Below, piece by piece: positions 37,293-60,701 of a DNA stretch of 64,000 nucleotides. Position 1 is the first letter of the stretch. Each line of letters begins with the position of its first letter. The notes under the pieces were generated by a model. That model made no database searches, was not told the DNA's origin, and was given only the letters and a program-made list of their open reading frames with translations. Source of the stretch: an uncultured Deferribacterales bacterium (lineage in GTDB: Bacteria > Chrysiogenota > Deferribacteres > Deferribacterales > Mucispirillaceae); the NCBI GenBank assembly GCA_947853665.1, contig CANTXF010000016.1, forward strand, positions 124,001-188,000. Direction: 5' to 3'. The translations under genes were made by a program, and so were the position numbers.

Positions 37293-37425
37293 AAATTATA
37301 GGAAATATTTATAATAAAGCGGCTTGCTCTAAAACCGTAAAAAAATAAGGCCGGAGCGTCCTGAAAAGCGCCGTATAAAAGCTAATCTGAAAAGTTTGCC
37401 TTGCCCGCGCAGGCATGATAATAAA
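37293..37425 (+). repeat. Dispersed inverted-end repeat, copy 1
   Basis: The left end (37293-37326) contains GGAAATATTTATAATAAAGC; the right end (37394-37425) contains TTTGCCTTGCCCGCGCAGG. The reverse complement of the right end resembles the left end, as in the other copies at 39.6, 51.7 and 60.6 kb. Length is 133 bases. Confidence 0.6.
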
Positions 37426-37547
37426 CGCTTTCTTTGAGTATCCGGAAAATATTTGCCTTATCAATTCAAATGTTTATATTCCGGGCCAGCCGTAAAACAT
37501 CCGCCTTATTCAGCAGGGATGTTTCCAATCCGAACCGGCTTTAAAAC

Positions 37548-37579
37548 GAGCCGCATTAATTAAGGCGGTTCCCGTTTTT
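37548..37579. terminator. Hairpin terminator between nuclease and NarK-like genes
   Basis: Seven-bp stem GAGCCGC/GCGGTTC (37548-37554 with 37565-37571, one G-T pair), loop of ten, T5 at 37575-37579 on the plus strand and GTTTTAA on the minus strand. It could serve the convergent MFS gene. Confidence 0.5.
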
Positions 37580-37625
37580 GGCGTGACGGAGCTGATATAT
37601 AATAACCTTCCGCATCTGTCTCACG

Positions 37626-38942
37626 TCAGGAGGCAGCCGTCATATTTTTTACGCGCTTTCTGTCAAGGATGGTCATTATCAATATGCAAACGGCAAAAAG
37701 GAAGGAATATATAAGAAAACCTTTAGTATAGCCGCCCTCCCCCAAAGCGCTTACCGCCATGCCCAGCAGCGGGGGAATTATAAAGCCTCCCATGGCTCCC
37801 ACTCCTCCGATTATGCCGGCCGCCCCTCCGACGGCTCCGTCTATATAAACGGGAACGAGCCTGAATACGGAAGCGTTGGAAATCCCTATGCCCCCGACCA
37901 TAATAAAAATGCCAAGACCGCTCATAAACGCCGTACCGCCGAAAGAAAGAATCATCCCTCCTGCCAGACAGCATGAAAGAGCAGCTATCGTAATATGCTC
38001 GGCCTGGAAAATATCAGACAGTTTACCACCGAATATCCTCATAAATGGAGAAAAAGCGGAAGATAGCCCGGTAATAATGCCAGCAGCCTGGAGAGAAAAA
38101 CCGTGATGGGCAGTCCAGAACGAAGGAAGCCAGGCCGTAAGAGCCAAACTGCCTCCGAAAGTAGAAAAATATACGGCGGTAAGGGCCCAGCATCTGCCGT
38201 TTTTTGCCGCGGTTAAAATGGATTCCTTCATCCTGCCTTTCGGAAATTCCTCCTGACCGGCGCTTTTCGCTTTTTCCGCCGCCTTGGCCGGATTTACACC
38301 GGCTCTTAAAAGCTGAAAATACCATGCGTCCCTATCCGTAATTACAAAAACTACGGTACCGGCCAGCACGATAAGGAACCATAGCGTATAAACGCCGCTG
38401 AAACCTATAAAATAAAGCCCTATGGGTATAAGAGCCGTGGCAACCCCGGAAGATATGCCCCCTATGCCGGAATAAAGACCCAGCGCCGTTCCCTGTCTGG
38501 CCATAGAATACCAGTATGAAACATGGGCTATCCCCGCTGTAAAAACGCCTATGCCGCAGCCTGTTAAAGCGCCGCACAAAAGTAAAACGGGATAAAGGTT
38601 TCCTGGAATTTCGCCTTCCGGATAAAATAAAGCCAGCACGGAGAAAGACGCCAGCCCGCAAAGAGTAAGCAGCAATAGAAGAACTATCGGCTTTTTACCG
38701 CCGTTTGAATCGGCCCAAGCTCCGCACGGCACGCGCAAAAGCCCGCCGGTAAGCGTCGGAATGGCCACAAGAAGCCCCACCTGATAAGGAGAAAGCCCCA
38801 TGCCTTCCTTAATAACCGGAGCCGTAGCACCGAAAAAGGCAACCGAAGCAAATCCCATGAAAAGGCCGAGAATGGCCGAAGCAAGACCTATAATTGGGTT
38901 GCCTTTTAAAACTAATTCGGTTAATCTTTTATTATAAGACAT
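37626..38942 (-). CDS. NarK-like nitrate/nitrite MFS porter
   Basis: A 12-span MFS transporter of 438 residues. It has the MFS loop motif RVPCGAWADSNGGKKP after helix 2 and glycine-rich helix signatures (GLYSGIGGISSGV; GGVGAMGGFIIPPLLG) like the nitrate-signature regions of the NarK/NNP family. The N-terminal GLFMGFASVAFFGATAPVI is also typical of that family. Nitrate/nitrite transport is the best guess, but other MFS anion porters share these features and no nitrate reductase gene lies near. It is monocistronic and precedes no obvious partner. Confidence 0.7.
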   Translation of the reverse strand: MSYNKRLTELVLKGNPIIGLASAILGLFMGFASVAFFGATAPVIKEGMGLSPYQVGLLVAIPTLTGGLLRVPCGAWADSNGGKKPIVLLLLLTLCGLASFSVLALFYPEGEIPGNLYPVLLLCGALTGCGIGVFTAGIAHVSYWYSMARQGTALGLYSGIGGISSGVATALIPIGLYFIGFSGVYTLWFLIVLAGTVVFVITDRDAWYFQLLRAGVNPAKAAEKAKSAGQEEFPKGRMKESILTAAKNGRCWALTAVYFSTFGGSLALTAWLPSFWTAHHGFSLQAAGIITGLSSAFSPFMRIFGGKLSDIFQAEHITIAALSCCLAGGMILSFGGTAFMSGLGIFIMVGGIGISNASVFRLVPVYIDGAVGGAAGIIGGVGAMGGFIIPPLLGMAVSALGEGGYTKGFLIYSFLFAVCILIMTILDRKRVKNMTAAS

Positions 38943-39037
38943 AACGGTATAAATTTAATACCGCCGCGCATAAAAATCAATATTTTAAGGCGTATGGCTT
39001 TTAAACGGATGCTTTAAAGCCTCTTACCGGAGAAACG

Positions 39038-39400
39038 ATGCGGGAAAATTTCGAATTAAGAATAAGAGAATTTGGAAAACTGAAACAGGGCTGGAACTAC
39101 GGTAAAGGAGAAACTTTTTCGGACGAGCTTATAGAACTGGCTGTGCAGCTGGCAAAAAGATACTTTAAAGCCTATGGACTCAGCGTAAGCGGAGCTCCAA
39201 AAGAGGACGGCTCGATAGATTTGATGTTCAATAAAAGCGACCATTTTATGGATATAACGGTATCTCCAGGTTCATCCGCCGTTTCTCTCAAATACTGCAA
39301 GGGCATAGGGAAAAACAAGCTGGAAGAATCATGGGGAACGGTAGAAATAGCGAAGCTTGACGATATACTGTCAAAATTCGACGAAATATCCGGCGGTTGA
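39038..39400 (+). CDS. Small orphan protein of unknown function
   Basis: A 120-residue cytoplasmic protein. It begins with a short helix ending in GKLKQGWNYGKGETFSDELIE, then an amphipathic helix (AVQLAKRYFKAY) and a beta part (EDGSIDLMFNKSDHFMDITV). The order (a loop with W and G, a helix, then a DG-x-I-x-L/F strand and a strand with a hydrophobic-Asp pattern) recalls a widespread family of small proteins found near phage, plasmid or toxin genes. That is an impression only. GGAG precedes the ATG. A weak hairpin follows. Confidence 0.55.
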   Translation: MRENFELRIREFGKLKQGWNYGKGETFSDELIELAVQLAKRYFKAYGLSVSGAPKEDGSIDLMFNKSDHFMDITVSPGSSAVSLKYCKGIGKNKLEESWGTVEIAKLDDILSKFDEISGG

Positions 39401-39727
39401 TTTTATAAACGACCGGATAGAATCCTTCCGGCCGTTTCCTGCCATAATTAAAACCGCCGGCCCGGCGGTATGTATAAATTTTTTCCAATAAAAGAATACG
39501 GCTATATATTGACGCATATAATTATAATATCATTTCTAGGCTTCAAGTTATTTATCATAAAGCCTGCGCGGCAAAGCGAGATTTGGCCAAGTTATTAAAC
39601 AGCCCCCGGCATAATGCTCACGCGCGATCATTCGTTACAGACGCAAGTTCTATACTATAACAATCTCCCGTGGCATTAAAATAAGTTATGCGAGAGTATA
39701 GCTGCATAAAAGAATAAACAATAAAAA
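39401..39727. other. 327-base intergenic region with hairpin and repeat
   Basis: No gene is visible. It contains a hairpin just after the small orphan gene (11-base arms 39407-39417 and 39427-39437 with one mismatch, no T-run) and a dispersed repeat copy (39551-39667, minus). Confidence 0.55.
39551..39667 (-). repeat. Dispersed inverted-end repeat, copy 2 (degenerate)
   Basis: Read on the minus strand, the right end (39551-39580) has CGCTTTGCCGCGCAGGC followed by TTTATGATAAA, matching copies 1, 3 and 4. The left end (39643-39667) is more diverged (GAGATTGTTATAGTATAG against GAAATATTTATAATACAG). At 117 bases it is the shortest copy. Confidence 0.45.
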
Positions 39728-40291
39728 CTAAAAACCGCTTCTGAAGGCTCTGATATTTACGTCAGTAGTTTTGGGAGGAACGCTGGCGCTTATTACGTCT
39801 TCCCATATATTTTTATCCATATTCAGAACTTTGCACAACTCTCCAAGCAAAGGCATCCCGGCGGCCTTTATATTACCTGCCTCCTCGGCGGCTTTATCGG
39901 CGTCTATTTCATAAACGCACGCAAATTTCTTTTTCCATTCGTCTATGGTATCGGACGGATATTCCGCGTTTCCCATGGCAACCGCGGGAGGCATGATCTT
40001 TCTCGTATTGAGAATAAGCACAGTACCGGCATTTATGAAACCCGAGTACCTGAGAAACTCCATATTTTCGAAAGATACGATAATATGAGCTCCGCCAGAG
40101 GGTATTACGGGAGAATAAACCTTATCTCCGAACCGTATATGGGAAACTACGCTGCCCCCTCTTTGGGCCATTCCGTGTATCTCGCTTTTCTTCACGTCGA
40201 AACCGGCCTGCAAAAAAGCTCCGCAGGCGATATTGCTTGCAAGGATTATACCCTGACCTCCCACTCCGGCCATTATGATATTTTTAACCAT
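39728..40291 (-). CDS. iorB: Indolepyruvate:ferredoxin oxidoreductase beta subunit
   Basis: Gamma/beta-type subunit of 187 residues, working with IorA to oxidise arylpyruvates (from Phe, Tyr, Trp) to aryl-acetyl-CoA with ferredoxin reduction, a fermentation or synthesis route in anaerobes. The N-terminal GVGGQGIILASN and the SEIHGMAQRGGSVVSHIRFG segment are characteristic of 2-oxoacid:acceptor oxidoreductase gamma domains. It overlaps iorA by eight bases and ends the minus-strand block that begins at 51.4 kb. The enzyme is oxygen-sensitive, which supports an anaerobic host. Confidence 0.93.
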   Translation of the reverse strand: MVKNIIMAGVGGQGIILASNIACGAFLQAGFDVKKSEIHGMAQRGGSVVSHIRFGDKVYSPVIPSGGAHIIVSFENMEFLRYSGFINAGTVLILNTRKIMPPAVAMGNAEYPSDTIDEWKKKFACVYEIDADKAAEEAGNIKAAGMPLLGELCKVLNMDKNIWEDVISASVPPKTTDVNIRAFRSGF

Positions 40292-42023
40292 GGCGGCCCT
40301 CCCCTTTTTCTATGGCGGAAAAACGGCATACTTTCATACAAAGGTCGCATCCGGTACACATAGCCGGGTCTATCGACGCCTTGCGGGCGGAATTATCCCA
40401 CGTTATGGCCGGGCATCCGAGCCTCGTACATATTTTGCATCCAGTACATTTAGATGCGTTTACCGCAAGAGAAGGCTTTATAACCGACCTGTCCGCAAAA
40501 ATACACGGTCTGTTGGTAATTATAACGCTGACTTCCTTCGCCTCGGTTTCCTCTTTCAGAACCCTCATACATTCTTCAACATCAAAAGGGTCTACTACTC
40601 TTATACGTTTCACGCCCACTGCAGCGCATAATTCCGGAAATTTTACAGCGTAAGCGGGCTCCTTCTTGATTGTAAAGCCGGACGCGGGATTAGGCTGATG
40701 CCCGGTCATTCCTGTGATTCTGTTATCCAGAATAACCACGGTGGAAACGCCTTTATTATAAACGGAATTAATAAGCCCTGCCAGACCGGTATGCAGGAAA
40801 GTGGAATCTCCTATCACAGCAACTGATTTCCCGGCGGCGTCGCCATTAGTAGCTCTGTCGGCGCCGTGGGCCATAGAAACGCCAGCTCCCATGCATACGG
40901 TGGTATTTACCGCGTTTAAAGGGGGAAGCAGGCCGAGAGTATAACAGCCTATATCGCCGAAGGAGAAAAGTTTCAGCCTGGACATGGCGTAAAAAATTCC
41001 CCTATGCGAACAGCCTGGACATAAATTAGGCGGCCTTACCGGCAGCTCGGAACAGACCTCTTCCGTTTCAGGCAGCTCTTTATTAAAAAGAGCCCTTACG
41101 GCATCCTGGGAAAGCTCGCCGCATAAGTCCCTGGGCAGCGGCTCCACGTCTATTCCGGCGGCTTTTATTTCAGTTTCGAATATGGGGTCCAGTTCTTCCA
41201 CAACATATAGCTTACCTACGGTACGGGCAAATTCCGCAATTTCTTTCATCGGAAGGGGCCATACCATAGCGGGTTTGAATATGCACGCATCGGGTAAAGC
41301 CTCTTTAACATACTGATAGGCAACACCGGAACACACGACGCCGTACCCGCCCTCGCCCTTTTCAACCTTTGCGAGAAGCCCGGAATAAGCCTGAAGGCAT
41401 TTAAGCCTTTCTTCAACCGCCCGATGCCTTCTTCTTGCGTTTGCGGGCACCATTACCCACTTATCAGTGTCTTTTTCAAAATCTTTTTTAAAAATTTCAG
41501 CCTGTTCCCCGAGAGACACAACCGACATACTATGGGAAACCCTCGTTTCGGAACGCACTATAACAGGAACGGAGAATTTTTCCGATATTTCAAAAGCGAG
41601 CTTGGTAAAATCCTTAGCTTCCTGGCTGTCGGAAGGCTCAAGCATGGGCACTTTTGCAAAACGTGCGTAATTGCGGCTGTCCTGTTCGTTCTGGGAAGAA
41701 TGCATATTAGGGTCGTCCGCCACAATAAAAACAAGCCCGGCGTTTACTCCTGTATAGCTTCCGGTCATAAGCGGCTCGGAAGCAAGGTTCAATCCTACGT
41801 GTTTCATGCACGTCATAGCGCGGCGGCCTGCAAGAGACGCTCCCAGAGCGGCTTCGGCAGCGACCTTTTCATTTGAGGCCCATTCTGAAACTATATCGCC
41901 GTATTTGGAAATAAACTCCGTTATCTCGGTGCTTGGGGTCCCGGGATATGAACTGACGAAACCTACGCCGGCTTCAAATGCCCCTCTGGCAAAGGCCTCG
42001 TTGCCGCTCATGATTTTATTCAT
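40284..42023 (-). CDS. iorA: Indolepyruvate:ferredoxin oxidoreductase alpha subunit
   Basis: Catalytic subunit of 579 residues binding thiamine diphosphate and iron-sulfur clusters. The pyrimidine-binding domain is N-terminal (GNEAFARGAFEAGVGF, YPGTPSTEI). The TPP domain contains LCPGCSHRG, GDIGCYTLG and GDSTFLHTG with the NRITGMTG Mg-binding loop. Two [4Fe-4S] motifs end the chain (CTGCKICTRLGCP and CTGCDLCMKVC). The first cluster has a slightly longer spacing before its last Cys, as in known IorA. Length matches the family. GGAG lies nine bases before the ATG. Confidence 0.95.
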   Translation of the reverse strand: MNKIMSGNEAFARGAFEAGVGFVSSYPGTPSTEITEFISKYGDIVSEWASNEKVAAEAALGASLAGRRAMTCMKHVGLNLASEPLMTGSYTGVNAGLVFIVADDPNMHSSQNEQDSRNYARFAKVPMLEPSDSQEAKDFTKLAFEISEKFSVPVIVRSETRVSHSMSVVSLGEQAEIFKKDFEKDTDKWVMVPANARRRHRAVEERLKCLQAYSGLLAKVEKGEGGYGVVCSGVAYQYVKEALPDACIFKPAMVWPLPMKEIAEFARTVGKLYVVEELDPIFETEIKAAGIDVEPLPRDLCGELSQDAVRALFNKELPETEEVCSELPVRPPNLCPGCSHRGIFYAMSRLKLFSFGDIGCYTLGLLPPLNAVNTTVCMGAGVSMAHGADRATNGDAAGKSVAVIGDSTFLHTGLAGLINSVYNKGVSTVVILDNRITGMTGHQPNPASGFTIKKEPAYAVKFPELCAAVGVKRIRVVDPFDVEECMRVLKEETEAKEVSVIITNRPCIFADRSVIKPSLAVNASKCTGCKICTRLGCPAITWDNSARKASIDPAMCTGCDLCMKVCRFSAIEKGEGRHG

Positions 42024-42025
42024 AT

Positions 42026-42586
42026 TTACATGCTCCAGTTTTCCAGCAGCCGGAGAAGCCTGCTTTCGGGATAGGCGGCCTTAAAAAGGTTAAGGTTTTT
42101 CTCTCTGTCCTCGGGTTTGGACGAAAGCACAAGCCTGTAATACCATACGGGTTTCATATAACCGGATTTTATAAACTGTTCGACGTTAACGTTCGCTCCC
42201 AGGTCAAAAGCAAGACCGTCGCCTATTTCCTTAAAATTACCGCTTAATCCGGCAAGCTCCTTTAGAGCGGCGTCATTATCGCCTGCAAGCGCCCACGCTT
42301 CAGACGCTCTTACCGATATATATCCTTTCAGAAACGGCACCTGGGAAGACAGCGATTCAAAACTCTCTATCCCAGCGGGAGTGTCCAGGGCAAGCTCAGC
42401 CCGGCCTACAAGATCGGCTTTTTTCGCCTTGGAGGAGCCGTGTATGCTGTAAAAAGCGTAACCAGCTATAAAAATTACGACTACCGCCGCTATACCGAAA
42501 ATCAGCTGCTTAAAATAAGACTGGAGAAACGATTCAAGTTTGTCTATACCTGCGTTTTCAGTAACCGGATTATTTTTACGAGCCAT
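42026..42586 (-). CDS. Membrane-anchored TPR-like protein (YfgM-like)
   Basis: A 186-residue protein with a polar N-terminus, one membrane helix (about residues 26-47, LIFGIAAVVVIFIAGYAFY) and a helical periplasmic part with TPR-like repeats (RAELALDTPAGIESFESLS, ASEAWALAGDNDAALKELAG). This layout matches YfgM/tetratricopeptide ancillary proteins linked to the Sec translocon or to envelope chaperones. I use the ATG at 42586 because GGAGG lies eight bases upstream. The in-frame extension to 42613 lacks a ribosome site. It follows the PHP gene by one base and precedes iorA by two. Confidence 0.65.
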   Translation of the reverse strand: MARKNNPVTENAGIDKLESFLQSYFKQLIFGIAAVVVIFIAGYAFYSIHGSSKAKKADLVGRAELALDTPAGIESFESLSSQVPFLKGYISVRASEAWALAGDNDAALKELAGLSGNFKEIGDGLAFDLGANVNVEQFIKSGYMKPVWYYRLVLSSKPEDREKNLNLFKAAYPESRLLRLLENWSM

Positions 42587-42587
42587 A

Positions 42588-43253
42588 TTAAAATCCTCCG
42601 AAGGCTTTTTCAAATATATTCTTATTATTCATAAAAATTTTTTCAATTTCCGCGCCGTCCAGCCCGCTGCCGCGCAGTATTTTCACTGCCGTTTCGGGCC
42701 CCACATAATCGGAAGGCGCATGAGCGTCGTTATCCACTACCATAAGGGCCCCCGTAAGCCTGGCCATATTGGCCACATGGGCGTTAGTATAGGCGTGCCC
42801 CTTTCTCGTGGTTATTTCGAGAGCCACTCCGTTTTTTGCCGCAAGCTCGGCATCTTTAAAAGAAATAAGCCCCGGATGGGCTAAAATATCTACGCCTGCC
42901 TCCGCCGCCGCTCTGTTAGTACCCTCTTCCACGGGCTCGGCTATCGTTTCGCCGTGAACCACGACTATATCCGCTCCGTTATTTCTGGCAAGCTCCGTCA
43001 GCCTTCCGATATCTGCCGGAGAAACATGGGTCAGCTCTACGCCGGTTATAACCTTAAAACCGGAGGAAGAAGCGTTGAACGTTTCCTTAAAGCCAGCGTA
43101 AGCTTCTAAAAGGCTTAATATATTAGACGAATCGGCATGATCCGTAACGGCTATACCGGCATATCCGGCCACATAAGCGCGCCTTGCCGATTCGGACGGA
43201 ATAAGCGCGCCGTCCGAATGAGTGCTATGGGTGTGCAGATCGTATAATATCAC
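42588..43253 (-). CDS. PHP-domain phosphoesterase
   Basis: A 221-residue metal-dependent hydrolase of the PHP superfamily. Metal ligands are visible: DLHTHSTHSDG at the N-terminus, TDHAD near 38, a glutamate in TGVELTH, VHGE and HPGLI, and VDNDAH near the C-terminus. Related proteins are histidinol phosphatases or nucleoside 3',5'-bisphosphate phosphatases. Without other his genes nearby the substrate is open. The start is GTG with GGAAGG about nine bases upstream. It has its own promoter (43277-43305). Confidence 0.8.
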   Translation of the reverse strand: MILYDLHTHSTHSDGALIPSESARRAYVAGYAGIAVTDHADSSNILSLLEAYAGFKETFNASSSGFKVITGVELTHVSPADIGRLTELARNNGADIVVVHGETIAEPVEEGTNRAAAEAGVDILAHPGLISFKDAELAAKNGVALEITTRKGHAYTNAHVANMARLTGALMVVDNDAHAPSDYVGPETAVKILRGSGLDGAEIEKIFMNNKNIFEKAFGGF

Positions 43254-43276
43254 AGCAAGTACCTTCCAAAAAGGAT

Positions 43277-43305
43277 TTTATAATTTTTTTACGGTGAAAA
43301 GGCAA
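43277..43305 (-). promoter_or_regulatory. Promoter of the PHP-iorAB segment
   Basis: Minus-strand TTGCCT (43300-43305), a 17-base spacer and TATAAA (43277-43282), 24 bases before the PHP gene's GTG. It marks a new transcript start within the long minus-strand block. Confidence 0.6.
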
Positions 43306-43412
43306 GTATATTTATACCGTCGGTTCTTTTGCCATACGGGCCGCGCGCGGAACTTTTCCTCCTCCCGAAAGCCTGCAAAACAGGATGTTCCGGCCTCCGA
43401 TTATAAATCCGC

Positions 43413-44213
43413 TCAAGAGCGGTAAGCTATATCGGACAGTTTTTTAATATCCGGCTCAGGTTCCGTTCCCGTCCATATGGCAAAAGAACGGCAGGCCTGC
43501 CAGACGAGCATGGAAAATCCGTTTATCCTTTCAGGGCCGCTCCCGTATCCGGCAAGAAACGGAGTTACGGCAGGTTTGTACTGCAGATCCACCAGGGCTT
43601 CCGAAGCTGCGCCCACAGCCGGAAATCCCTCTCCTTTAAGGCCGATCGACGTTGAATTTATTATTATATCGTATATCCCGCCGCGCACCGAATCCATATC
43701 AGAAGATACCGCTTTAAAAGAACATAAAGAAGCGAGAAAACCTGCTTTTGCTACCGTCCTGTTGGCAATTGTAAGCTTATCCGGCTGAAATTCCGCAAGA
43801 TAGGCAATTACGGCCCTGGCGGCTCCGCCGGCTCCCAAAAGGAGGATATTTTTACCGGCAGTCGAAATTCCGGCGGTTTCAAGCATCCTGCCAAAGCCGT
43901 AAACGTCAGTATTATACCCGGTTATTTTACCGTTTACAAAACGCAGGGTGTTGACGGCTCCCGTTTTTTCCGCCGAGGCGTCTAAAGCGTCGCAGTATTT
44001 CATTATCTCAATCTTATAGGGCACGGTAACGTTGACTCCGGCAAAAGAATATCTTCTGAACATATCCAGAAGATAAGGTATTGAAGATGGGCTTTCGGCC
44101 TCATAGCAGGTATACCCTCCGTTTATCCCCGTAATATCCAGAAAATGGGTATGCAGAACGGGAGAAAAAGTATGCCCGAGGGGATACCCGATAAGGCCCA
44201 TATTAACGTACAT
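43413..44213 (-). CDS. aroE: Shikimate dehydrogenase
   Basis: NADP-dependent enzyme of 266 residues reducing 3-dehydroshikimate to shikimate in aromatic amino-acid synthesis. The substrate site includes GYPLGHTFSP near the N-terminus, NVTVPYK (about 63-69) with the catalytic lysine, and NTLRF. The nucleotide loop is GAGGAARAV (about 128-136), followed by NRT. The ATG at 44213 follows GGCGG by nine bases. A TTG at 44222 would add three residues. It overlaps the DUF502 gene by 11 bases. Confidence 0.93.
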   Translation of the reverse strand: MYVNMGLIGYPLGHTFSPVLHTHFLDITGINGGYTCYEAESPSSIPYLLDMFRRYSFAGVNVTVPYKIEIMKYCDALDASAEKTGAVNTLRFVNGKITGYNTDVYGFGRMLETAGISTAGKNILLLGAGGAARAVIAYLAEFQPDKLTIANRTVAKAGFLASLCSFKAVSSDMDSVRGGIYDIIINSTSIGLKGEGFPAVGAASEALVDLQYKPAVTPFLAGYGSGPERINGFSMLVWQACRSFAIWTGTEPEPDIKKLSDIAYRS

Positions 44214-44895
44214 TTTTTTCAACCGCCTTTTTTATTTCGATGTCGGCAGAATCGGGGCTGAGGTTTACCAGTCCTACGGAAAAAACAAATTTGATACCGT
44301 CCTCAACAGAAATATCAAGCTCCCTCACGTCGCTTTTAGCGACTATCGAAACGAAGCCGGACGTGGGATTAGGAGCGGTGGGGACAAACACGTTATAAGC
44401 GTCCTCCGTGCCGACTGAAGGCAGAGCCATAAAAGCCTGGGCGTCCTTTACCACGAACCCTACCATCCACATATCGCGGCGGGGAAATTCAACAAGCACA
44501 ACTTTTGAAAAGGTCGAGCCGCTTGTCGACTTAAAAGAATCTATCACCTGCTTGGTGCCGTAGTATATCGTTCTTGCGATAGGTATCGTAGACATTATCT
44601 TCTCGATAAGTCTGAATATTTTTCCTCCGATATAAGCTCTCGCTATAAGCCCGACAGAAAAAATAATTGCAATAACTATAATAAAAGCGGAAAGCTGCAG
44701 AATATAAGGCGGAAAAACATAATGGGATTTATCGGCGATTTTGGCCACTATGGGGAGAATATCACCGGTTAAAAGACGGTAAATAAACGATATGAGATAT
44801 ACGGTAACGACCAATGGAAGGCAGGCAAATATACCGGTAATGAATATCTGCCTGATTTTCTGGGAAAAGGGCGTTTTTTTACTCGCTTCGCCCAT
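44203..44895 (-). CDS. DUF502 family membrane protein
   Basis: A 230-residue inner-membrane protein of the DUF502 family. Two membrane helices lie at about 15-40 and 65-90, with the conserved loop IPIARTIYYGTKQVIDSF (about 104-121) and a soluble C-terminal beta domain with VFVPTAPNPTSGF, the family's best-conserved motif. The function is unknown; members occur in many bacteria and in plants. It overlaps aroE at its 3' end. The hairpin at 44923-44943 separates it from rny. Confidence 0.85.
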   Translation of the reverse strand: MGEASKKTPFSQKIRQIFITGIFACLPLVVTVYLISFIYRLLTGDILPIVAKIADKSHYVFPPYILQLSAFIIVIAIIFSVGLIARAYIGGKIFRLIEKIMSTIPIARTIYYGTKQVIDSFKSTSGSTFSKVVLVEFPRRDMWMVGFVVKDAQAFMALPSVGTEDAYNVFVPTAPNPTSGFVSIVAKSDVRELDISVEDGIKFVFSVGLVNLSPDSADIEIKKAVEKNVR

Positions 44896-44922
44896 AGCTT
44901 ACCTCCGAATACAAAATGGACA

Positions 44923-44943
44923 GGCCCTCCGTAAAGGAGGGCC
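44923..44943 (-). terminator. Hairpin after rny
   Basis: A perfect 8-bp stem GGCCCTCC/GGAGGGCC with a GTAAA loop, 20 bases after the rny stop. No T-run follows on the minus strand, so it may act as a partial terminator or protect the rny mRNA 3' end. Confidence 0.5.
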
Positions 44944-44962
44944 TTAAAAAATCAAAATCGGT

Positions 44963-48271: not shown

Positions 48272-48296
48272 TAATCTATATTTTTCCGAAAATCTA

Positions 48297-48480
48297 TAAA
48301 AAACGCCCCCGCATGTGCCGTATGAAATTAACAGTGCAGCCTGATATAAATCAGGTGCCGCTCAGCGCTGTTTCAGGCTTCCTTATTCATGTAAGGCATG
48401 CACACCGCAGCGTCATCGCGGCAGGTATTTCAAAAGTGTTGGCTCCAGTCCGTTAAAAACAACACGCGCACCGCAGGGGT
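48297..48480 (-). ncRNA. ssrS: 6S RNA
   Basis: The gap between zapA and rarA folds as a long hairpin on the minus strand. The 5' arm CCCCTGC plus GTGC (from 48479) pairs with the 3' arm GCAC plus GCGGGGG (ending at 48306), giving the closing stem of 6S RNA, followed by T6 (48299-48304). A large central region with a bulge, as needed to mimic an open promoter and trap sigma70 RNA polymerase, lies in between. Length of about 180 bases and position directly after zapA and upstream of the 5-FCL gene match the known ssrS neighbourhood. Boundaries are approximate. Confidence 0.8.
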
Positions 48481-48486
48481 GATCTT

Positions 48487-48756
48487 TCAAGCACCGAAAG
48501 AATCAATATTGCCGTCTATCCTTTCAAGGATTTTAAGCCCTTTATCCATTTCGGACTTTAATCCCATATTTTCCGCCGCAAGGCGAAAGGCTACCCTTAC
48601 GGCGACTCTTATATCCGAGCGTATATCTTCTTTGCGCCCCTCTTCTTCCATCATTTTGTCAAGAAAGGACGCGACCTTAAGATAATATTCCTTTTCGCCG
48701 TCCGGCGGATTTATACGGAACGTCTGCCCGAATATCTTTATTTCCACGTAATCCAT
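48487..48756 (-). CDS. zapA: Cell division protein ZapA
   Basis: Small FtsZ-ring stabiliser of 89 residues. The N-terminal globular part (VEIKIFGQTFRINPPDGEKE) is followed by a helix with YYLKVASFLDKMMEE and the long C-terminal coiled coil (RVAVRVAFRLAAENMGLKSE). Its stop is seven bases before the 6S RNA 5' end, the classical zapA-ssrS arrangement. It lies downstream of a ZapB-like coiled-coil gene, its likely partner. Confidence 0.88.
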   Translation of the reverse strand: MDYVEIKIFGQTFRINPPDGEKEYYLKVASFLDKMMEEEGRKEDIRSDIRVAVRVAFRLAAENMGLKSEMDKGLKILERIDGNIDSFGA

Positions 48757-48778
48757 GGCTCTACCGGAAAAAACGCCG

Positions 48779-49000
48779 TCAGTCGAATCTTGCGATTATG
48801 CTTTCAATTTTATGCCTTGCGGCGTCCCGGTCTTCTTTTATACGCTTGAGCTCGTCTTCCGCCGCGATATATTTTTCAAGCAGCTCGTCGTATTCCTGCT
48901 GCAGACCGGCTTTTGCGTCCCTTGCTTCCGCCGCGTCGGCAAGCAGTTTGTCTATTTTATTTTCCAATAAATTTATTTTATCGTATAATTCCATAATCAT
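48779..49000 (-). CDS. ZapB-like coiled-coil protein
   Basis: A small protein of about 73 residues that is almost entirely a charged coiled coil with heptads (ELYDKINLLENKIDKLLADA, then more of the same). It has the length and position of a cell-division ZapB-like protein, 22 bases upstream of zapA. ATG at 49000 has GGTA upstream; ATG at 48994 is equally possible. Assignment rests on composition and neighbourhood, because coiled coils of this size are not distinctive. Confidence 0.65.
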   Translation of the reverse strand: MIMELYDKINLLENKIDKLLADAAEARDAKAGLQQEYDELLEKYIAAEDELKRIKEDRDAARHKIESIIARFD

Positions 49001-49047
49001 TTTTACCACGCATGACAACACATTGTCAATGCGAAGTATCTACAAAA

Positions 49048-51419: not shown

Positions 51420-51605
51420 CTTTATGCACCTCCGAGAAAAATATACATATAGGCCAGATAGTTATTGTAATATAAAACGTATAAAAAAACCACAGGATAA
51501 AGGAGAAAAGTACAGATTTATATGAAAAAATCAAATATTTCAGGCGGCCATACCATAATGCTGATAGTTACGGTAAATAATTACGCGACTGTCTAATAAT
51601 ACAGG

Positions 51606-51634
51606 TAGTTACAGAAAATATTTATAGTATGATC
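51606..51634 (+). repeat. Solo repeat end beside copy 3
   Basis: GTTACAGAAAATATTTATAG matches the left end of the dispersed repeat (GTTATGGGAAATATTTATAA at 60 kb). It lies just outside the right end of the full copy 51651-51787 and in opposite orientation to it. Confidence 0.45.
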
Positions 51635-51650
51635 TCCGAGGCGGCAAAAA

Positions 51651-51787
51651 CATTCATAATAAAAGCTGCGCGGCAATGCGAACTCTCTTTTTTCGGCCAT
51701 ACATCAGAAAGTCTATAGCCCGGCGCTTACATCTTATGCTCTATCGCATTGGTGCAAGCCGCTTTATTATAATTTTTTCATAACCTT
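51651..51787 (-). repeat. Dispersed inverted-end repeat, copy 3
   Basis: Read on the minus strand: left end TTATAATAAAGCGGCTTG (within 51754-51787) and right end CATTGCCGCGCAGC with TTTTATTATGAATG (within 51651-51681). It spans 137 bases. Its internal part is diverged from other copies but keeps GCGCCGGG near the middle. Confidence 0.6.
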
Positions 51788-51832
51788 ACGCTAATATATG
51801 TAAAGGTATAGTTATACGATATCCTATACGGT

Positions 51833-52819: not shown

Positions 52820-52831
52820 TGCTGCACGCTC

Positions 52832-53677: not shown

Positions 53678-54222
53678 AATACCGGCTCCGCATCCCGCAA
53701 AAATGGGTGCATCTTATCTCTGGATGATAAATTCGTTTTATCTTTAGGTACGCGCCAGTCTATATTAAGAGCCGGATCGTCAAACCGGATGCCTCTTTCA
53801 TAATCTGGAGCATAATAATTATCGCATTTATAAGAAAAAACAGCCGTTTCGCTCAAAACGGCAAAACCGTGGGCAAATCCCGCCGGAATAAAAAACTGGC
53901 GTTTGTTCTCCCCCGTAAGCTCAACGCTGAAGTGTTTTCCGAAAGTGGGAGACCCGGCCCTGATATCTAAAGCCACATCGATAACGCGGCCGCTTATAAC
54001 CCGCACCAGTTTCGCCTGACTATAAGGAGGGATCTGATAATGCAGGCCGCGTATTACTCCGTAAGACGATAAAGACTCGTTATCCTGAATAAAATTTACA
54101 TCTATACCGGCTTCAATATATCTTTTCCCGTTATATGACTCCATAAAATATCCGCGCTCATCTCCAAAAACTTTGGGCTCTATTATCAACAAGCCTTCAA
54201 TATCAGTTTTTATGACATTCAC
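53674..54222 (-). CDS. rfbC: dTDP-4-dehydrorhamnose 3,5-epimerase
   Basis: Cupin-fold epimerase of 182 residues, third step of dTDP-L-rhamnose synthesis. Conserved segments include EPKVFGDERGYFMESYN, the catalytic histidine in RGLHYQIPPYSQAKLVRV, VALDIRAGSPTFG, PAGFAHGF and the tyrosine in YKCDNYYAP. Length is normal. It starts two bases after rfbA and overlaps rfbD. Confidence 0.95.
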   Translation of the reverse strand: MNVIKTDIEGLLIIEPKVFGDERGYFMESYNGKRYIEAGIDVNFIQDNESLSSYGVIRGLHYQIPPYSQAKLVRVISGRVIDVALDIRAGSPTFGKHFSVELTGENKRQFFIPAGFAHGFAVLSETAVFSYKCDNYYAPDYERGIRFDDPALNIDWRVPKDKTNLSSRDKMHPFLRDAEPVL

Positions 54223-54224
54223 GT

Positions 54225-55094
54225 TTAAACATCCCTCATTATATTGTATAAATACATGCCGTATTCGGTTTTTTGAAGCAGCTCAGCCTTTTTCAGCACC
54301 ACGTCTCCGTCTATCCAGCCGTTGTCATAGGCGATTTCTTCAAGACAGGCTATTTTAAGCCCTTGACGCTGCTCTATGGTTCTTATAAACTGCCCGGCCT
54401 CCATAAGGCTTTCATGTGTGCCGGTATCAAGCCACGCGTGGCCACGTCCCAAAAGTTCCACATTAAGTTCTCCCATATTAAGGTATTCCATATTAACGGA
54501 AGTGATTTCAAGCTCCCCTCTGGCGGAAGGCTTAATGCTCTTTGCTATATCGACAACCCTGTTATCATAGAAATAAAGCCCCGTAACGGCATAATTCGAG
54601 GACGGCTTCAGCGGTTTTTCCTCTATGGAAACGGCTTTGCCTCTTTCGTCAAACTCGACTACGCCGAATCTTTCCGGATCTGCCACCCAGTATCCGAACA
54701 CAGTTGCCCCGGAATCTCTTGAAACGGCTCTCTCCAGTATGGAGCTTAAACTGAAGCCATAAAATATATTATCGCCAAGAACAAGAGCGCAGTTATCGGA
54801 CCCTATAAAATTCTCCCCAATAATAAATGCCTGGGCAAGCCCTTCCGGCTTAGGCTGAACAAGATATTCAAGATTTATACCGAAATCCGAACCGTCTCCG
54901 AGGACGCGCATAAACCCGCTTTGATCCTCAGGGGTGGTGATAATAAGGATATCCCTGATCTTTGCCAGCATAAGAATGGACAGAGGATAATATATCATAG
55001 GCTTATCATAAACCGGCAAAAGCTGCTTTGAAACCCCCAGCGTAACGGGGTGCAGTCTTGAACCGGCTCCTCCGGCCAGAACGATGCCTTTCAT
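54225..55094 (-). CDS. rfbA: Glucose-1-phosphate thymidylyltransferase
   Basis: First step of dTDP-rhamnose synthesis: joins dTTP and glucose-1-phosphate. The 289-residue chain opens with [18 protein letters not shown] (nucleotide loop) and has [31 protein letters not shown] and [18 protein letters not shown], all RmlA hallmarks. I place the start at 55094, with GGAGG upstream and an ATGA overlap with the rfbB stop. The open frame runs to 55154, but that part lies inside rfbB. Confidence 0.95.
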
Positions 55095-56170
55095 TTTCCG
55101 CCTCCGAGCCCCAATCTTTCCATTCTGTAGCTTCCGTCCAAAACCCTTCTGCACCAGCCGTCCCTGTTTTCAAGATACCACATTACGGTTTTGCGTATCC
55201 CGGAATCGAACGTCTCAAGAGGTTCCCAGCCCAAATCTTTGCATATTTTAGACGCGTCTATGGCGTAGCGCATATCATGGCCAGGCCTGTCCGAAACGAA
55301 GGTAATCTGTTCCTTATATGATTTTTTATCGTCTCTGGGATAAAGCTCGTCCAAGATCTCGCATATTTTATTTACGACGTCTATGTTTCGCCGTTCGTTG
55401 CTGCCGCCGATATTGTAAGTTTCGCCCGCCTTGCCGGAAGATGCTACGGCATAAAGAGCCCGGACGTGATCTTCCACATAAAGCCAGTCCCTTATCTGAG
55501 CTCCGGTTCCGTACACTGGGATTGGTTTTCCTTCCACGGCTCTCAAAATAGCCAAAGGTATCAGCTTTTCTGGAAAATGATACGGCCCGTAATTATTGGA
55601 ACAGTTGGTTACCACCGCGGGCAGGCCGTAAGTTCTGTACCACGCCCTTACAAGATGGTCTGAAGACGCCTTGGAAGCGGAATAAGGTGAGCTGGGAGAA
55701 TAAGGAGTATCTTCCCTGAAAAAGTCTTTATCGTTTTCAAGGTCACCATAAACTTCATCCGTGGAAATATGATGGAAAATAAAATTTTCCTTACAGCCTC
55801 CGGCGGAGGCAAGATACGCTCGCGAAGCTTCCAGCAGCGTATAGGTTCCGAAAATATTGGTTTGCATAAAGTCGTCGGGGGAATCTATAGACCTGTCCAC
55901 ATGAGACTCGGCGGCAAGGTTCATAACGGTGTCAGGTCTAAAATCATGGAATATTTTATCAAGCCCTGCTCTGTCGCATATATCGCATTTATAAAATCTG
56001 AAACGTCCGCTTCCGGAAACGCTTTCGAGAGAATCCATATTTCCGGCATAAGTGAGCTTATCTATTACCGCCACGTTATTTTCAGTATCGTTTATAAGAT
56101 AGCGCACGAGAGCCGAACCTATGAACCCAGCGCCACCGGTAACGATTATATTTTTTGCTTCGGAAACCAT
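55091..56170 (-). CDS. rfbB: dTDP-glucose 4,6-dehydratase
   Basis: Second step of dTDP-rhamnose synthesis, 359 residues. NAD-binding TGGAGFIG is at 11-18, then [18 protein letters not shown], the catalytic [28 protein letters not shown] and GDGxQIRDWL-like [13 protein letters not shown]. The start at 56170 follows GGAGGG. An open extension to 56227 has no ribosome site. It is first in the operon, with a promoter at 56199-56227, and is transcribed divergently from the nitroreductase gene. Confidence 0.95.
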
Positions 56171-56198
56171 GCTCCCTCCTGATTGGTTTTGTAAGAAT

Positions 56199-56227
56199 AT
56201 TAAAAAATTTATGGACAAAAAATGCAA
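56199..56227 (-). promoter_or_regulatory. Promoter of the rhamnose operon
   Basis: Minus-strand TTGCAT (56222-56227), a 17-base spacer and TTTAAT (56199-56204), about 30 bases before the rfbB start. Confidence 0.5.
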
Positions 56228-56289
56228 TTAAAATATTATATTTTCGTATTTTTATTAACATACAGAATTAAAAGATGCGGAGAGTTTTT

Positions 56290-57105
56290 ATGTCTTTTTT
56301 TCATTTGGATACGGAAAGGTGCGCAAAGGATGGCATTTGCTCAAAGGTATGTATCGTAGGGATAATAAAAAACGATGAAAACCATTTGCCTTATATTGAC
56401 GAATCAAAGGAGAAGTCGTGCATGGCATGCGGTCTATGCGTGGCGTTCTGCCCGCATGAAGCCTGTTATGTGGAAAAGCTGGATAAAGAGCAGTTTTCGG
56501 TTATTGAAGAAATAAAAACGCCGGACGGTTCGCAGATTGACACGTTGCTCAAATCAAGGAGAAGCGTGCGTAATTTCAGAAAAACTCCGGTGGACAGCGA
56601 AACCCTCTATAAAGTAATGGATGCCGTAAGATACGCTCCAACGGCAAAAAACTCACAGAATATCCGGTGGGCCATAACTAAAAATATGGAAGAAACCGAT
56701 AAAATAAGAGAGCTTATGCTCAGGTATTTTGAAGAAACGTCCAAAGTAACCCCGGCGCCGGAATCCGTATTTATGAAAAGCATGATAAGGGCTTATAACC
56801 AAGGCCGGGACGTTTTTCTCAGAGGGGCTCCGCAGCTGGCGGTCGCAGTTCTTCCTAAAGATTACGTATGGAAGGAAGACGCGGCGATAGCCCTTACTTA
56901 TTTTGAAATTTCGGCCTTTGCACATGGGCTTGGCACGTGCTGGTCCGGCTATTATACGGCGGCGGCAAGGAAATACCTGCCCTTAAGAGAAGCTATGGGA
57001 ATAGGAGAAGACGAATACGTAGGCGGAGCCTTGATGCTGGGCAATCCGATATACAGGCCGAAAGCCGTGCCTTCGCGAAACAACGTGAAAATATCCTGGA
57101 TATAA
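56290..57105 (+). CDS. Ferredoxin-nitroreductase fusion protein
   Basis: A 271-residue flavoprotein with an N-terminal bacterial ferredoxin domain (CAKDGICSKVC and CMACGLCVAFCP, two [4Fe-4S] clusters) fused to a nitroreductase-like FMN domain. The FMN domain has KSRRSVRNFRKTPVD (phosphate contact), RYAPTAKNSQN and GLGTCWSGYY. Such fusions, common in anaerobes, probably take electrons from ferredoxin to reduce nitro- or quinone-like compounds. The ATG at 56290 has GGAGAG five bases upstream. An earlier in-frame ATG at 56275 lacks a site. Substrate unknown. Confidence 0.88.
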   Translation: MSFFHLDTERCAKDGICSKVCIVGIIKNDENHLPYIDESKEKSCMACGLCVAFCPHEACYVEKLDKEQFSVIEEIKTPDGSQIDTLLKSRRSVRNFRKTPVDSETLYKVMDAVRYAPTAKNSQNIRWAITKNMEETDKIRELMLRYFEETSKVTPAPESVFMKSMIRAYNQGRDVFLRGAPQLAVAVLPKDYVWKEDAAIALTYFEISAFAHGLGTCWSGYYTAAARKYLPLREAMGIGEDEYVGGALMLGNPIYRPKAVPSRNNVKISWI

Positions 57106-57154
57106 GCTTTTTCCCGTACTGCGGGAGCTTTCATACTCCTGTATATAGGCTTTT

Positions 57155-57174
57155 AAAAATTTAATAAAGCGGCG
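57155..57174 (+). repeat. Possible solo repeat end
   Basis: AAAAATTTAATAAAGCGGCG resembles the left end of the dispersed repeat (AAATATTTATAATAAAGCGGC), just after the nitroreductase gene. Short and diverged. Confidence 0.3.
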
Positions 57175-57208
57175 GCGATACGGTACGCGGTTATTACCTA
57201 TATCGCCG
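57173..57208 (-). terminator. Possible terminator of the Crp/Fnr gene
   Basis: Perfect 8-bp arms CGGCGATA/TATCGCCG (57173-57180 with 57201-57208) with a 20-base loop, overlapping the Crp/Fnr stop. The minus strand beyond is T-rich (57150-57168). Confidence 0.4.
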
Positions 57209-57908
57209 TAACCCATTTATAAATTTCCCGCAGATTTGCGGGTTTAATATAATAATGCCTGCCGTCCCTCATAAGAAAAGAACTTTTAACCCAGTTGGCA
57301 AATAACCTGTCGAGAGTTATTTTGCTGGTATAAATTATTTTTATGATATCGTCCCTGCGGATTGAAATAGGCACCTTAACCCATTCGTTATCCATAGACT
57401 CGTCGAAAGAATAACCGTAAGCGCATAAGATATTGGTAAAAAGAAACCGTAACCTGTCCTCCGTTGACATGGAAAAAAGCCCTATCATACCGTTAAGCTC
57501 CGAACGGTCGCAAAGTTCACAGTAATTCACAAGCCGCTTATAAAGCTCCATATCACTATCTATTATACATTCCATCATATCAAAATCCAGTATAATAATT
57601 TCACTTCTATCAAGGGCAGTTATACGGCGGGGCGAATTGGTTCCCGTAAAGAAGTTAAGATAGCCCATCATCCTTCCGGGAATAAATATATTCATAGCCA
57701 AAGGCTTATTAAGGCTGAAATTTACAACAGCCTGTGAAATAATACCAGACTTGATATAAAAAAGAAAATCCATGATCTCCTTTTCATGGATTATGATGGA
57801 ATCTTTTTTATAGGTTACCTTTTTTCCGTATTTTATAAAAATATCAACAAGAGGTTTAGACAGTTTCGGAACTATCCATGGAACCGGTTTATCATGCATA
57901 TTCTTCAT
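57198..57908 (-). CDS. Crp/Fnr-family transcriptional regulator
   Basis: A 236-residue protein with an N-terminal cyclic-nucleotide-binding-like beta barrel (about 20-130) and a C-terminal helical and winged-helix part (from about 150). It lacks the FNR N-terminal cysteine cluster and the clear cAMP phosphate-binding motif of CRP, so the signal is unknown. The DNA-reading helix region reads RRDDIIKIIYTSKITLDRLF, diverged from the usual Crp pattern. It lies between the nitroreductase and the flavocytochrome genes and may regulate either. GGGAGG precedes the ATG by about seven bases. Confidence 0.78.
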   Translation of the reverse strand: MKNMHDKPVPWIVPKLSKPLVDIFIKYGKKVTYKKDSIIIHEKEIMDFLFYIKSGIISQAVVNFSLNKPLAMNIFIPGRMMGYLNFFTGTNSPRRITALDRSEIIILDFDMMECIIDSDMELYKRLVNYCELCDRSELNGMIGLFSMSTEDRLRFLFTNILCAYGYSFDESMDNEWVKVPISIRRDDIIKIIYTSKITLDRLFANWVKSSFLMRDGRHYYIKPANLREIYKWVTAI

Positions 57909-58257
57909 AATACGCCTCCCGCCGCATCAAATATACACATGTCCCACAACTAAGCGCAAATATAAAATTATTGGTAACTATCCGTCTGTACGCTTTAAGC
58001 AAAGCATTAGTCACCATATCTGTACTGGAGAGCAAATTCTTGGCCTTATCCCCCGGATAATGACCTGACCGACTCATCGTATGAGATTCTTCATCGACTA
58101 GAAGCAAGTTTATATACAGACGCGGCGCGGGACCCGTTATATGGCCCTGCTAAAGCGCGTGTTTTACAAATATTTATAACGTGCGCTTTTAAATACCGCT
58201 GCGTCTTATTTACCTCAAGAAGAACCGTACAGGGTGCTATCTTTCAGATATATCAAA
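57909..58257. other. 349-base intergenic region
   Basis: No convincing gene: a 71-codon open frame on the minus strand (57892-58107) has no recognisable product and overlaps the Crp/Fnr start. A repeat-end-like sequence lies at 58164-58190, flanked by AAAGCGC/GCGCTTT inverted arms (58152-58158 with 58183-58189). Nothing else is evident. Confidence 0.5.
58164..58190 (+). repeat. Possible solo repeat end
   Basis: ACAAATATTTATAACGTGCG matches the core of the dispersed repeat's left end. The expected right end would fall inside the cytochrome gene and is absent. Confidence 0.35.
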
Positions 58258-58650
58258 TTACTTAACCTTAACCTTGAAGCTGTGACATTCGTTGCAGTAA
58301 AGAACGGGTTCTTTATGAGACGTATGACATACGGTACAGCGGATTTCTCCCTGGTGGCTGTCATGAATATTTACGCTTTTTGTTCCGGCAGCTTCGCTGT
58401 AAGTTTTTTTCAGCGGTTGGCCGTCATCACCCAATACGCCTTTATAAGTGCCGTCCTTGTTTTCGTGACATTCAATGCAGGACGATGCCGGGGCTCTTTT
58501 CTCAGGGTTCTCCGTTTTATGGCAGTCCGCACATACAAGGCCGTTTTCCGCATGAGCTTTCATGGAAACAATCTGCTTATCCGCCGCAGCGTAGGCGCAT
58601 AAAACTCCAGTCATAAGCACAAATATAAAAATAACGGCAAGTTTTTTCAT
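58258..58650 (-). CDS. Periplasmic tetrahaem cytochrome c subunit
   Basis: A 130-residue exported cytochrome with a signal peptide (about 1-22) and exactly four CXXCH haem sites: CADCH (40-44), CIECH (58-62), CTVCH (105-109) and CNECH (119-123). Size and haem spacing match the haem domain of flavocytochrome c fumarate reductases, here as a separate protein. It lies directly after the FAD subunit gene, so it should pass electrons from a quinol-oxidising membrane cytochrome to that flavoprotein. The start at 58650 follows a GGGAGAGGG ribosome site. An open upstream extension to 58728 is not needed. Confidence 0.9.
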   Translation of the reverse strand: MKKLAVIFIFVLMTGVLCAYAAADKQIVSMKAHAENGLVCADCHKTENPEKRAPASSCIECHENKDGTYKGVLGDDGQPLKKTYSEAAGTKSVNIHDSHQGEIRCTVCHTSHKEPVLYCNECHSFKVKVK

Positions 58651-58745
58651 CTGCCCTCTCCCTTTACTTTTTAATAATATAAAACAGATAAAAATACGTC
58701 TCATCTCATCCCATAAAGGAAAAGACAATTTACAGAAATTAATAA

Positions 58746-58782
58746 TCAGAATTCAGGCGGAATGAAACCGCCTGAATTCTGA
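58746..58782 (-). other. 15-bp perfect intercistronic hairpin
   Basis: Arms 58746-58760 and 58768-58782 are perfectly complementary (core AATTCAGGCGG/CCGCCTGAATT) with a seven-base loop, in the gap between the flavoprotein and cytochrome genes. No strong T-run follows on the minus strand, so it may tune the two subunits' ratio by partial termination or by protecting the upstream mRNA. Confidence 0.7.
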
Positions 58783-58810
58783 ATTAACACGAGCCTTTAA
58801 GAAAGGAGGC

Positions 58811-60337
58811 TTATTTAGAGTTTTCTTTCATATGCTTTACAGAAAGCCTGCCGCCCGCGATTGCAAAGGCGCTGCCCGTACCTTCCGCTATATGCATATC
58901 GTAAGAATCGCTGTAAAGGCCGCCGGCATCCTGACCTATGGCGTAAAGACCGGGTATTACCTTGCCTTGTTTATCAAGAACTTGAAAATTTTCGTTGATC
59001 TTAGCTCCTCCGAGAGTCGCATACATTTTAAGAACTGTTTTAAATGCGTAGAAAGGGCCTTTTTCTATTTTTCTTAAAGCTTTTCTTTCTTTATAAAACT
59101 CTTCGTCATAACCCTGAGCGGCATATTTATTGATATTGGCTACGCTCTGCTTCAGCTTTACGGGATCCATGCCCGTCTTTTTGGCCAGTTCATCAAGCGT
59201 TTTAGCCTTAACGACAACGTTGCCAGGTTCTTTCATGGCTTCAACTATAAGTTTGTCCAGGTCTTTAAGCCTGTCCCCCGCAACCAGGATATTACCGTGG
59301 TTTCTTACTACGCCGTTGCCGTGCTGGAGATCATCAATAATAGCCTGGTCCATAATATTCCACGTTCTGCCGCCCCGCTTTTCGATAGCATTGGACATAT
59401 ATTCAAAAGAAAGAGTTTCGTCAAAGAAACGTTCCCCCTGCATATCCACATGGAGGAAAGGCTGAAGAACAACAGCCCCGAAAGCGGCATATTTTACGTT
59501 ATTGCCAAAGGTAAGGGAAGAATCTACATCGAAGCATGGGCCGGACTGCATTCCCAGATCCATATTGGCCGTATCAGCTCCAACGGCAATCATCATGTTT
59601 ATGCCGTCGCCCTCACGTCCTTTGGCCCCCTGACCCTCAAGAGGAAATCTGGTAAGATATTTTTTAACCATTTCACGGTTCATGGCAAAACCGCCCGTTG
59701 CCACGATTACGCCGCGTTTAGCGTTTACCGTTATCCGCTCGCCATCGGCATTTTCAGCTATCACTCCGGTAATACGGCCCGATTTATCCTGTATAAGTTG
59801 TTTACCTGGAGTTTCTGTCAATATTATCCCGCCTTTTTCCTTTATAAGAGGCACGAAGGCTTTTATCATAGTGGCGCCGGTATTGTCCTTAAATACATGC
59901 CAAGTAAGGTTGTAGCCCACAAACATTGTTTTTATTCCTTCAAATTCAACGCCGTGGTCAAGGAGAAAATCGATATTATCGGCAGTAGCGTTAATAAATG
60001 TTCTTACAAGTTTGGGTTCTATCCTCCAGTGATGGAAATCCATTATCTGTTTAAACCCGTATTCAGGGTTATATGGATAGTTTTCCTTTATCTGCATACG
60101 GCTGCCTGCGGCATAGGTACCTTCCATAAAGTTGCCGCCCCCGCCGAGACCTGGCATTTTTTCCAGAAGTACTACGGAAAATCCCTGCTCCAAAGCGGAA
60201 AGGGCTGCCGTAGTTCCGCCGGCTCCGGCTCCTATAACGCAAACATCAACGTTATAGACCTTATCCTCGGCAAAACTCTGAACGGCCATAAGGCAGAAAA
60301 AACACGAAGCGGCGGCAAGCGCCAGAATCTTTTTCAT
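58811..60337 (-). CDS. Periplasmic FAD subunit of a flavocytochrome c reductase
   Basis: A 508-residue exported flavoprotein of the fumarate reductase/succinate dehydrogenase flavoprotein family. A signal peptide covers about 1-23. The FAD dinucleotide loop GAGAGGTTAAL is at 36-46, with LLEKMPGLGGG following. Near the C-terminus PGLYAIGQDAGG is the second FAD contact. The segment after it (GLYSDSYDMHIAEGT) lacks the HGANR-type substrate motif of true fumarate reductases. With a separate tetrahaem cytochrome next to it, the closest known arrangement is the periplasmic methacrylate/acrylate reductase type. The electron acceptor is therefore an enoate, but which one is open. Confidence 0.85.
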   Translation of the reverse strand: MKKILALAAASCFFCLMAVQSFAEDKVYNVDVCVIGAGAGGTTAALSALEQGFSVVLLEKMPGLGGGGNFMEGTYAAGSRMQIKENYPYNPEYGFKQIMDFHHWRIEPKLVRTFINATADNIDFLLDHGVEFEGIKTMFVGYNLTWHVFKDNTGATMIKAFVPLIKEKGGIILTETPGKQLIQDKSGRITGVIAENADGERITVNAKRGVIVATGGFAMNREMVKKYLTRFPLEGQGAKGREGDGINMMIAVGADTANMDLGMQSGPCFDVDSSLTFGNNVKYAAFGAVVLQPFLHVDMQGERFFDETLSFEYMSNAIEKRGGRTWNIMDQAIIDDLQHGNGVVRNHGNILVAGDRLKDLDKLIVEAMKEPGNVVVKAKTLDELAKKTGMDPVKLKQSVANINKYAAQGYDEEFYKERKALRKIEKGPFYAFKTVLKMYATLGGAKINENFQVLDKQGKVIPGLYAIGQDAGGLYSDSYDMHIAEGTGSAFAIAGGRLSVKHMKENSK

Positions 60338-60419
60338 AAATTCCTCCTAATATAGAATAAAAATAAACATCAATAATAAACAACGGTATATTTTTAAATT
60401 AAAATATAGATTAAAAATA

Positions 60420-60433
60420 CTATCATGAGATAG
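60420..60433. promoter_or_regulatory. Palindrome upstream of the flavocytochrome operon
   Basis: CTATCATGAGATAG, two 5-bp arms around four bases, about 85 bases before the flavoprotein start. It could be an operator, but I find no second copy near the Crp/Fnr gene. Confidence 0.25.
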
Positions 60434-60476
60434 ATGTTTCATATTTTTTAGCACAGCGATCCCTTATATGTGGCCG

Positions 60477-60510
60477 AATAAAGTTATGGAAATGTTTATA
60501 GAGAAGCGGC
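60477..60510 (+). repeat. Solo repeat end upstream of copy 4
   Basis: AATAAAGTTATGG followed by AAATGTTTATAGAGAAGCGGC closely repeats the left end at 60563-60597, 86 bases away in the same orientation. Confidence 0.6.
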
Positions 60511-60562
60511 CCTTACGCCCGGCGGCAAAGGATATCGCAACGATACCCTTGCGTGAATTAAT

Positions 60563-60701
60563 AAAGTTATGGGAAATATTTATAATACAGCGACTTGTGG
60601 CGGCAATGAATAATAAGACCAAAAGCGCTTGGCAAGGCACTGTTTGAGGGGTTAAGCTCCGAATTTGCCTTGCTGCGTAGGTATTATTATGAATATTTTT
60701 G
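60563..60701 (+). repeat. Dispersed inverted-end repeat, copy 4
   Basis: Left end AAAGTTATGGGAAATATTTA with TAATACAGCGACTTG (60563-60597); right end TTTGCCTTGCTGCGTAGG with TATTATTATGAATATTTTTG (60663-60701). The reverse complement of the right end (AAATATTCATAATA then GCGCAGC-like) resembles the left end, so the element has imperfect inverted termini. Length is 139 bases. Confidence 0.65.

Follow-up and report, generated by a model that had tools for sequence, protein, structure and literature searches.

A dispersed MITE-like family of intergenic repeats with long terminal inverted repeats and 8-bp target-site duplications in the genome of an uncultured Deferribacterales bacterium

The four repeats that lie in the intergenic gaps of the analyzed stretch of DNA (the window: 64,000 nucleotides, C16:124001-188000, from a genome of 2.43 Mb in 68 contigs) belong to a single family with more than 100 copies in the genome. 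We are highly confident that this family is best explained as a family of MITEs, presumably mobilized in trans, and the enzyme responsible would be a DDE transposase that cuts with an 8-bp stagger. A MITE-like, non-autonomous element was one of two possibilities raised in the first-pass annotation of this DNA, and it is this suggestion that is supported by the copy number, the terminal inverted repeats (TIRs) of ~50 bp, the 8-bp target-site duplications (TSDs) at the tips, the intergenic sites, the lack of coding capacity and the existence of internally deleted derivatives.

A profile built from copies outside the window scores the four window copies at 212.9, 111.7, 69.5 and 53.1 bits and reaches at most 13.7 bits in dinucleotide shuffles of the window's intergenic DNA (1.25 Mb in total). 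All four are thus far above what shuffled DNA yields, and the concern that such DNA might give equal matches can be set aside. The best window copy is a full-length element of 227 bp on the plus strand (60536-60762; nhmmer 212.9 bits with a model excluding this copy), which corresponds to the match C16:184537-184761 of R1, a sequence model of 231 positions made from 35 full copies. Alignment to the consensus TIRs places its left TIR at 60536-60588 (+) and its right TIR at 60715-60762 (-), and comparison of the flanks places its TSDs, which are identical at 7 of 8 positions, at 60528-60535 (AAGGATAT) and 60763-60770 (AAGAATAT). The copy at 51585-51813 (-; 111.7 bits; R1 match C16:175585-175813, minus strand) is full-length and diverged, and two copies are degenerate: one at 37264-37457 (+; 69.5 bits, E 7e-21; C16:161274-161465), which has lost its right tip, and one at 39511-39705 (-; 53.1 bits, E 7e-16; C16:163509-163705, minus strand).

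The solo ends that had been reported beside these copies fared less well. The segment 60477-60510 lies in what is probably a fragment from the left end of a second copy (60456-60532, +), which at 12.5 bits (E 0.0019) is borderline relative to the shuffled maximum of 13.7 bits. The segment 51606-51634 is not a solo end: it belongs to the 51585-51813 copy, in which it forms the inner part of the right TIR, and the weak ends at 57155 and 58164 are no better than chance (no match and 0.2 bits, respectively). An extra right end (51543-51583, -; model positions 189-229, 15.7 bits, E 1.9e-4) with the terminus GGCGGCCATACC adjoins the 51585-51813 copy and is likely what is left of a host copy after a nested insertion. 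Other features of the window are a strong hairpin resembling an intrinsic terminator (GCCGGGCCTTTACGCCCGGC then TTTTTT on the minus strand) at 60874-60893, just past the 60536-60762 copy; a 6S RNA gene (Rfam RF00013, 83.3 bits) at 48302-48482 (-), inside the large gap 48272-49047; and an iorA homologue at 40284-42023 with 62-65% identity to records from Deferribacteraceae, Calditerrivibrio and Seleniivibrio, which places the host within Deferribacterales.

The units of 117-139 bp that were first recognized are real, and their ends were misplaced, falling in the inner parts of the TIRs: the element extends ~30-60 bases further on each side. In oriented and aligned genome copies, the true tips, reading inward, are 5'-CGCRGCTATACCC on the left and 5'-GGCGGCTATCCCC on the right. 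The inverted ends noted earlier are borne out as imperfect TIRs of ~50 bp, the consensus TIRs being identical at 41 of 50 aligned positions and differing in addition by an 8-base indel; this is longer than the 4-30 bp typical of MITEs (PMC10969869). Full copies are ~230 bp long (209-235 bp in 35 full copies), the consensus has a G+C content of 43%, and pairwise identity in the aligned set averages 75% and is at most 88%. Few parts of the element vary as little as the inner TIR block TATTTATAAT. No transposase gene is encoded, the longest open stretch in the 35 full copies having a median of 51 aa and a maximum of 76 aa, and the element is well below the limit of ~500 bp for a MITE that lacks such a gene. 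Together with its dispersal into many copies that lie mostly between genes and at AT-rich target sites, this makes the repeat a MITE as this class is defined in a review (PMC10969869). When genes were called simply as longest ORFs, 88.5% of the window proved to be covered by ORFs, and yet not one of the 65 testable copies is contained in an ORF.

In 49 full copies, the bases immediately outside the left and right tips were compared with those of mispaired flanks while length and offset were scanned. The best length is 8 with an offset of 0/0 from the TIR tips, at which identity is 68% compared to 42% in mispaired flanks (z = 10.5). In 20 of the 49 copies, at least 7 of the 8 positions match, where mispaired flanks predict 0.8 copies (1.7%), and the duplication is perfect in nine copies (for example TTTTGTTT, TTTAAAAA and TAATACTA). 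Thus, the target-site duplications that the first-pass annotation proposed to look for are present exactly at the TIR tips. They are ~90% A+T compared to 56% in the farther flanks. Counting against the MITE reading, the quality of the TSDs correlates only weakly with the divergence of the copies (Spearman 0.20, p 0.17).

Whole-genome scans, which had also been proposed, detect the family in far more copies than expected by chance. A blastn search with one window copy as query returns ~40 copies (E 5e-83 to 2e-23), and the pattern of the TIR tips, with up to 3 mismatches, has 89 matches compared to 1 for the reversed control. The R1 profile gives 153 rows which, after subtraction of ~16 opposite-strand doubles, correspond to at least ~135-137 places, fragments included; this count is close to a lower bound, and 7 of the ~137 places represent a related core-only repeat. 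The family makes up ~1% of the genome, and yet 26 of the 136 contig ends fall within a copy, an excess that is likely caused by breakage of the assembly at near-identical copies. The element therefore probably fragments the assembly and may hide recent copies.

Variant copies add to this picture. Some copies are internally deleted derivatives of the full element, down to mini-elements in which hardly anything but the two tips is left, as in the example at C2:26959, which is flanked by repeated TTAATTTTT. In an inverted-core subfamily (C25:4449/4656, C34:76769/76771, C22:5065/5066, C27:9358, C39:9799, C44:86161, C61:2756 and C66:12051), the core is of the left type and adjoins an outer tip of the right type, and the opposite side carries a left-type tip; several of these copies have near-perfect TSDs, which argues that the subfamily transposed as a unit. 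We suggest that the core was flipped by recombination within the TIRs and that the inverted form then spread. In nested or tandem arrangements on C64, C44, C13 and C63, and in the window beside the 51585-51813 copy, a truncated host copy stops at the inner TIR where another copy starts. On C64 the outermost flanks have TTTTTTTATT in common, as would be the case if a nested insertion had occurred and one host remnant had then been lost, and recombination between TIRs may be how host-copy remnants are lost after insertion. No intact empty site was found in these arrangements because one host remnant is missing in each of those examined.

A second family of dispersed intergenic repeats was also observed. 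It forms mosaic arrays of modules such as CGTTTTCTGTCCACCAACGTCTGC and TTTTAGAGCAAGCTCGGAATAGAAA (for example at C40:21979-22640, C53:27376, C53:31705, C68:35797, C27:11801 and C37:431), has 44 genome matches to a 181-base probe and often carries a diverged MITE core (model positions 44-197) without the MITE TIRs. A coding role for copies consisting of the core only was rejected since their reading frames are not common to all copies.

Could the copies have acquired a function in the host? One scenario, which we consider unlikely, is that they were co-opted as putative promoters, by means of TATAAT in the inner TIR, or as candidate terminators or RNase III sites that would tune neighboring genes. 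The low variability of the TATTTATAAT block and a sigma-70-like match (10 of 12 positions) at 60558-60586 are consistent with this idea, and there are published precedents in the Correia and ERIC elements (PMC10969869, PMC2229807). However, the number of promoter-like matches is 7 compared to 3.6 +/- 1.8 in shuffles, and the copies follow no clear orientation rule: 36 lie between tandem genes (22 in the same and 14 in the opposite orientation), 18 between convergent and 10 between divergent genes. Old copies seem to be under no constraint as they decay, and a MITE family would explain the data without any host function.

The transposase that would mobilize the MITE is not evident. ISL3, IS1595 and IS256 elements generate target duplications of 8 bp (8-9 bp for IS256) that are often AT-rich, and the 8-bp AT-rich TSDs described here are reminiscent of enzymes of these types, which are possible sources of the transposase. 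ISL3 (PF01610) and IS1595 (PF12762) transposases, as well as DDE_Tnp_1 (PF01609) and IS6/IS240 (PF13610) transposases, were not detected in the 68-contig assembly. The only transposase found among the five families searched is a single IS256-family copy (PF00872; C16:253918-254964, in an ORF of 394 aa), which is located near ORFs resembling mobile-element genes. It was rejected as the partner given that it has no match to the MITE TIRs. The initial statement that no transposase is seen thus holds across the assembly for the DDE families searched, apart from this unrelated copy outside the window. Likewise, no pair of TIRs surrounds an ORF among the 89 tip matches in the assembly, as would be the case for an autonomous element with matching ends. 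Such a partner would support a MITE but is not needed for one, and its absence from an assembly of 68 contigs counts, weakly, against the MITE reading. We infer that the partner has been lost, is unassembled or belongs to a family beyond the five searched. A more speculative proposal, and one that we regard as improbable, is that an undescribed type of transposase in Deferribacterota recognizes the ~50-bp TIR as a bipartite site, i.e. the tip plus the conserved TATTTATAAT subterminal block, and that the copies serve as portable promoters or as insertion hot spots for further copies.

The second possibility raised at the outset, a REP/BIME-like structured repeat, is not supported. REP/BIME units are palindromes of 20-40 bp without TSDs, whereas the units described here are 230 bp long and have TSDs at fixed tips. 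More generally, it is very improbable that selection on the hairpin maintains the family as a structured intergenic repeat with a role at the RNA or DNA level, be it a REP/BIME-like repeat or a family of small RNAs. Single copies do form one long hairpin, with values far below those of shuffled sequences (z = -8.1 for copy L012 and -3.2 for the window copy), which follows from the palindromic sequence, and the restriction of all 65 tested copies to intergenic DNA would also fit such a repeat. However, RNAalifold returns zero consensus pairs over 35 copies, and if the consensus hairpin is imposed, 84.1% of arm cells pair compared to 83.7% with shuffled partners, with double changes in 56 compared to 47 cells. 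That pairing of the arms is no better than in shuffles, without compensatory base changes, argues against a conserved RNA or a REP-type repeat: arm pairing is inherited and then decays, with no sign of copy-by-copy maintenance. In addition, an Rfam scan of the window identified no family at the copies, its sole hit being the 6S RNA elsewhere, and the family is absent from all relatives searched. Finally, that the copies are remnants of a larger transposon that never moved as a 230-bp unit is hardly credible, for although the ends resemble IS-type TIRs and some solo ends exist, no longer version was seen and full copies of 209-235 bp have both tips with TSDs directly at them, which refutes this reading for the main family.

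The MITE family is confined to its host lineage in the collections searched. No copies were found by blastn in 59 relatives or in phage and plasmid records, with the R1 profile in 14 genomes of the same family, or with the TIR-tip pattern in 45 other genomes of the order, and the exact TIR pattern matched nothing outside its own genome among 84,980 species genomes and viral contigs. The family is therefore lineage-specific, and it likely arose or arrived in the host lineage after the split from the sampled sister genera.

Elements of this kind are well known, and the repeat represents a new family of them. By description, the closest known systems in size, copy structure and habit are the Chunjie and Correia elements. 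As outlined in the passage on Chunjie in a review (PMC10969869, citing Chen et al. 2008), this MITE of Geobacter uraniireducens is 235 bp long and has TIRs, direct repeats, 38 copies of 178-235 bp and 57 partial copies, mostly intergenic; on this account, the two are alike in size, in the presence of full and partial copies and in intergenic habit, whereas the Deferribacterales family has the higher copy number and TIRs of ~50 bp. The Correia/NEMIS elements of Neisseria similarly have more than 100 copies, TIRs, TSDs, hairpin-forming potential and reported inversion of the element (PMC10969869), all of which are common to both families. The Correia/NEMIS elements measure 100-200 bp, have TIRs of 24 bp and carry TA at their ends (PMC2229807), whereas the family described here has GGC/CGC tips and an 8-bp TSD and resides in another lineage. 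ERIC (127 bp) and RUP (107 bp) have short TIRs of 7 and 9 bp, respectively, and TA termini (PMC2229807); they too are short palindromic repeats of intergenic DNA that are classed as MITEs, and differ from the present family in its 8-bp TSD and long TIRs.

In the literature searched, no MITE has been described in Deferribacterota. The family reported here represents a dense expansion of such an element, with one copy per ~18 kb, and its copies provide natural insertion markers for strain typing.
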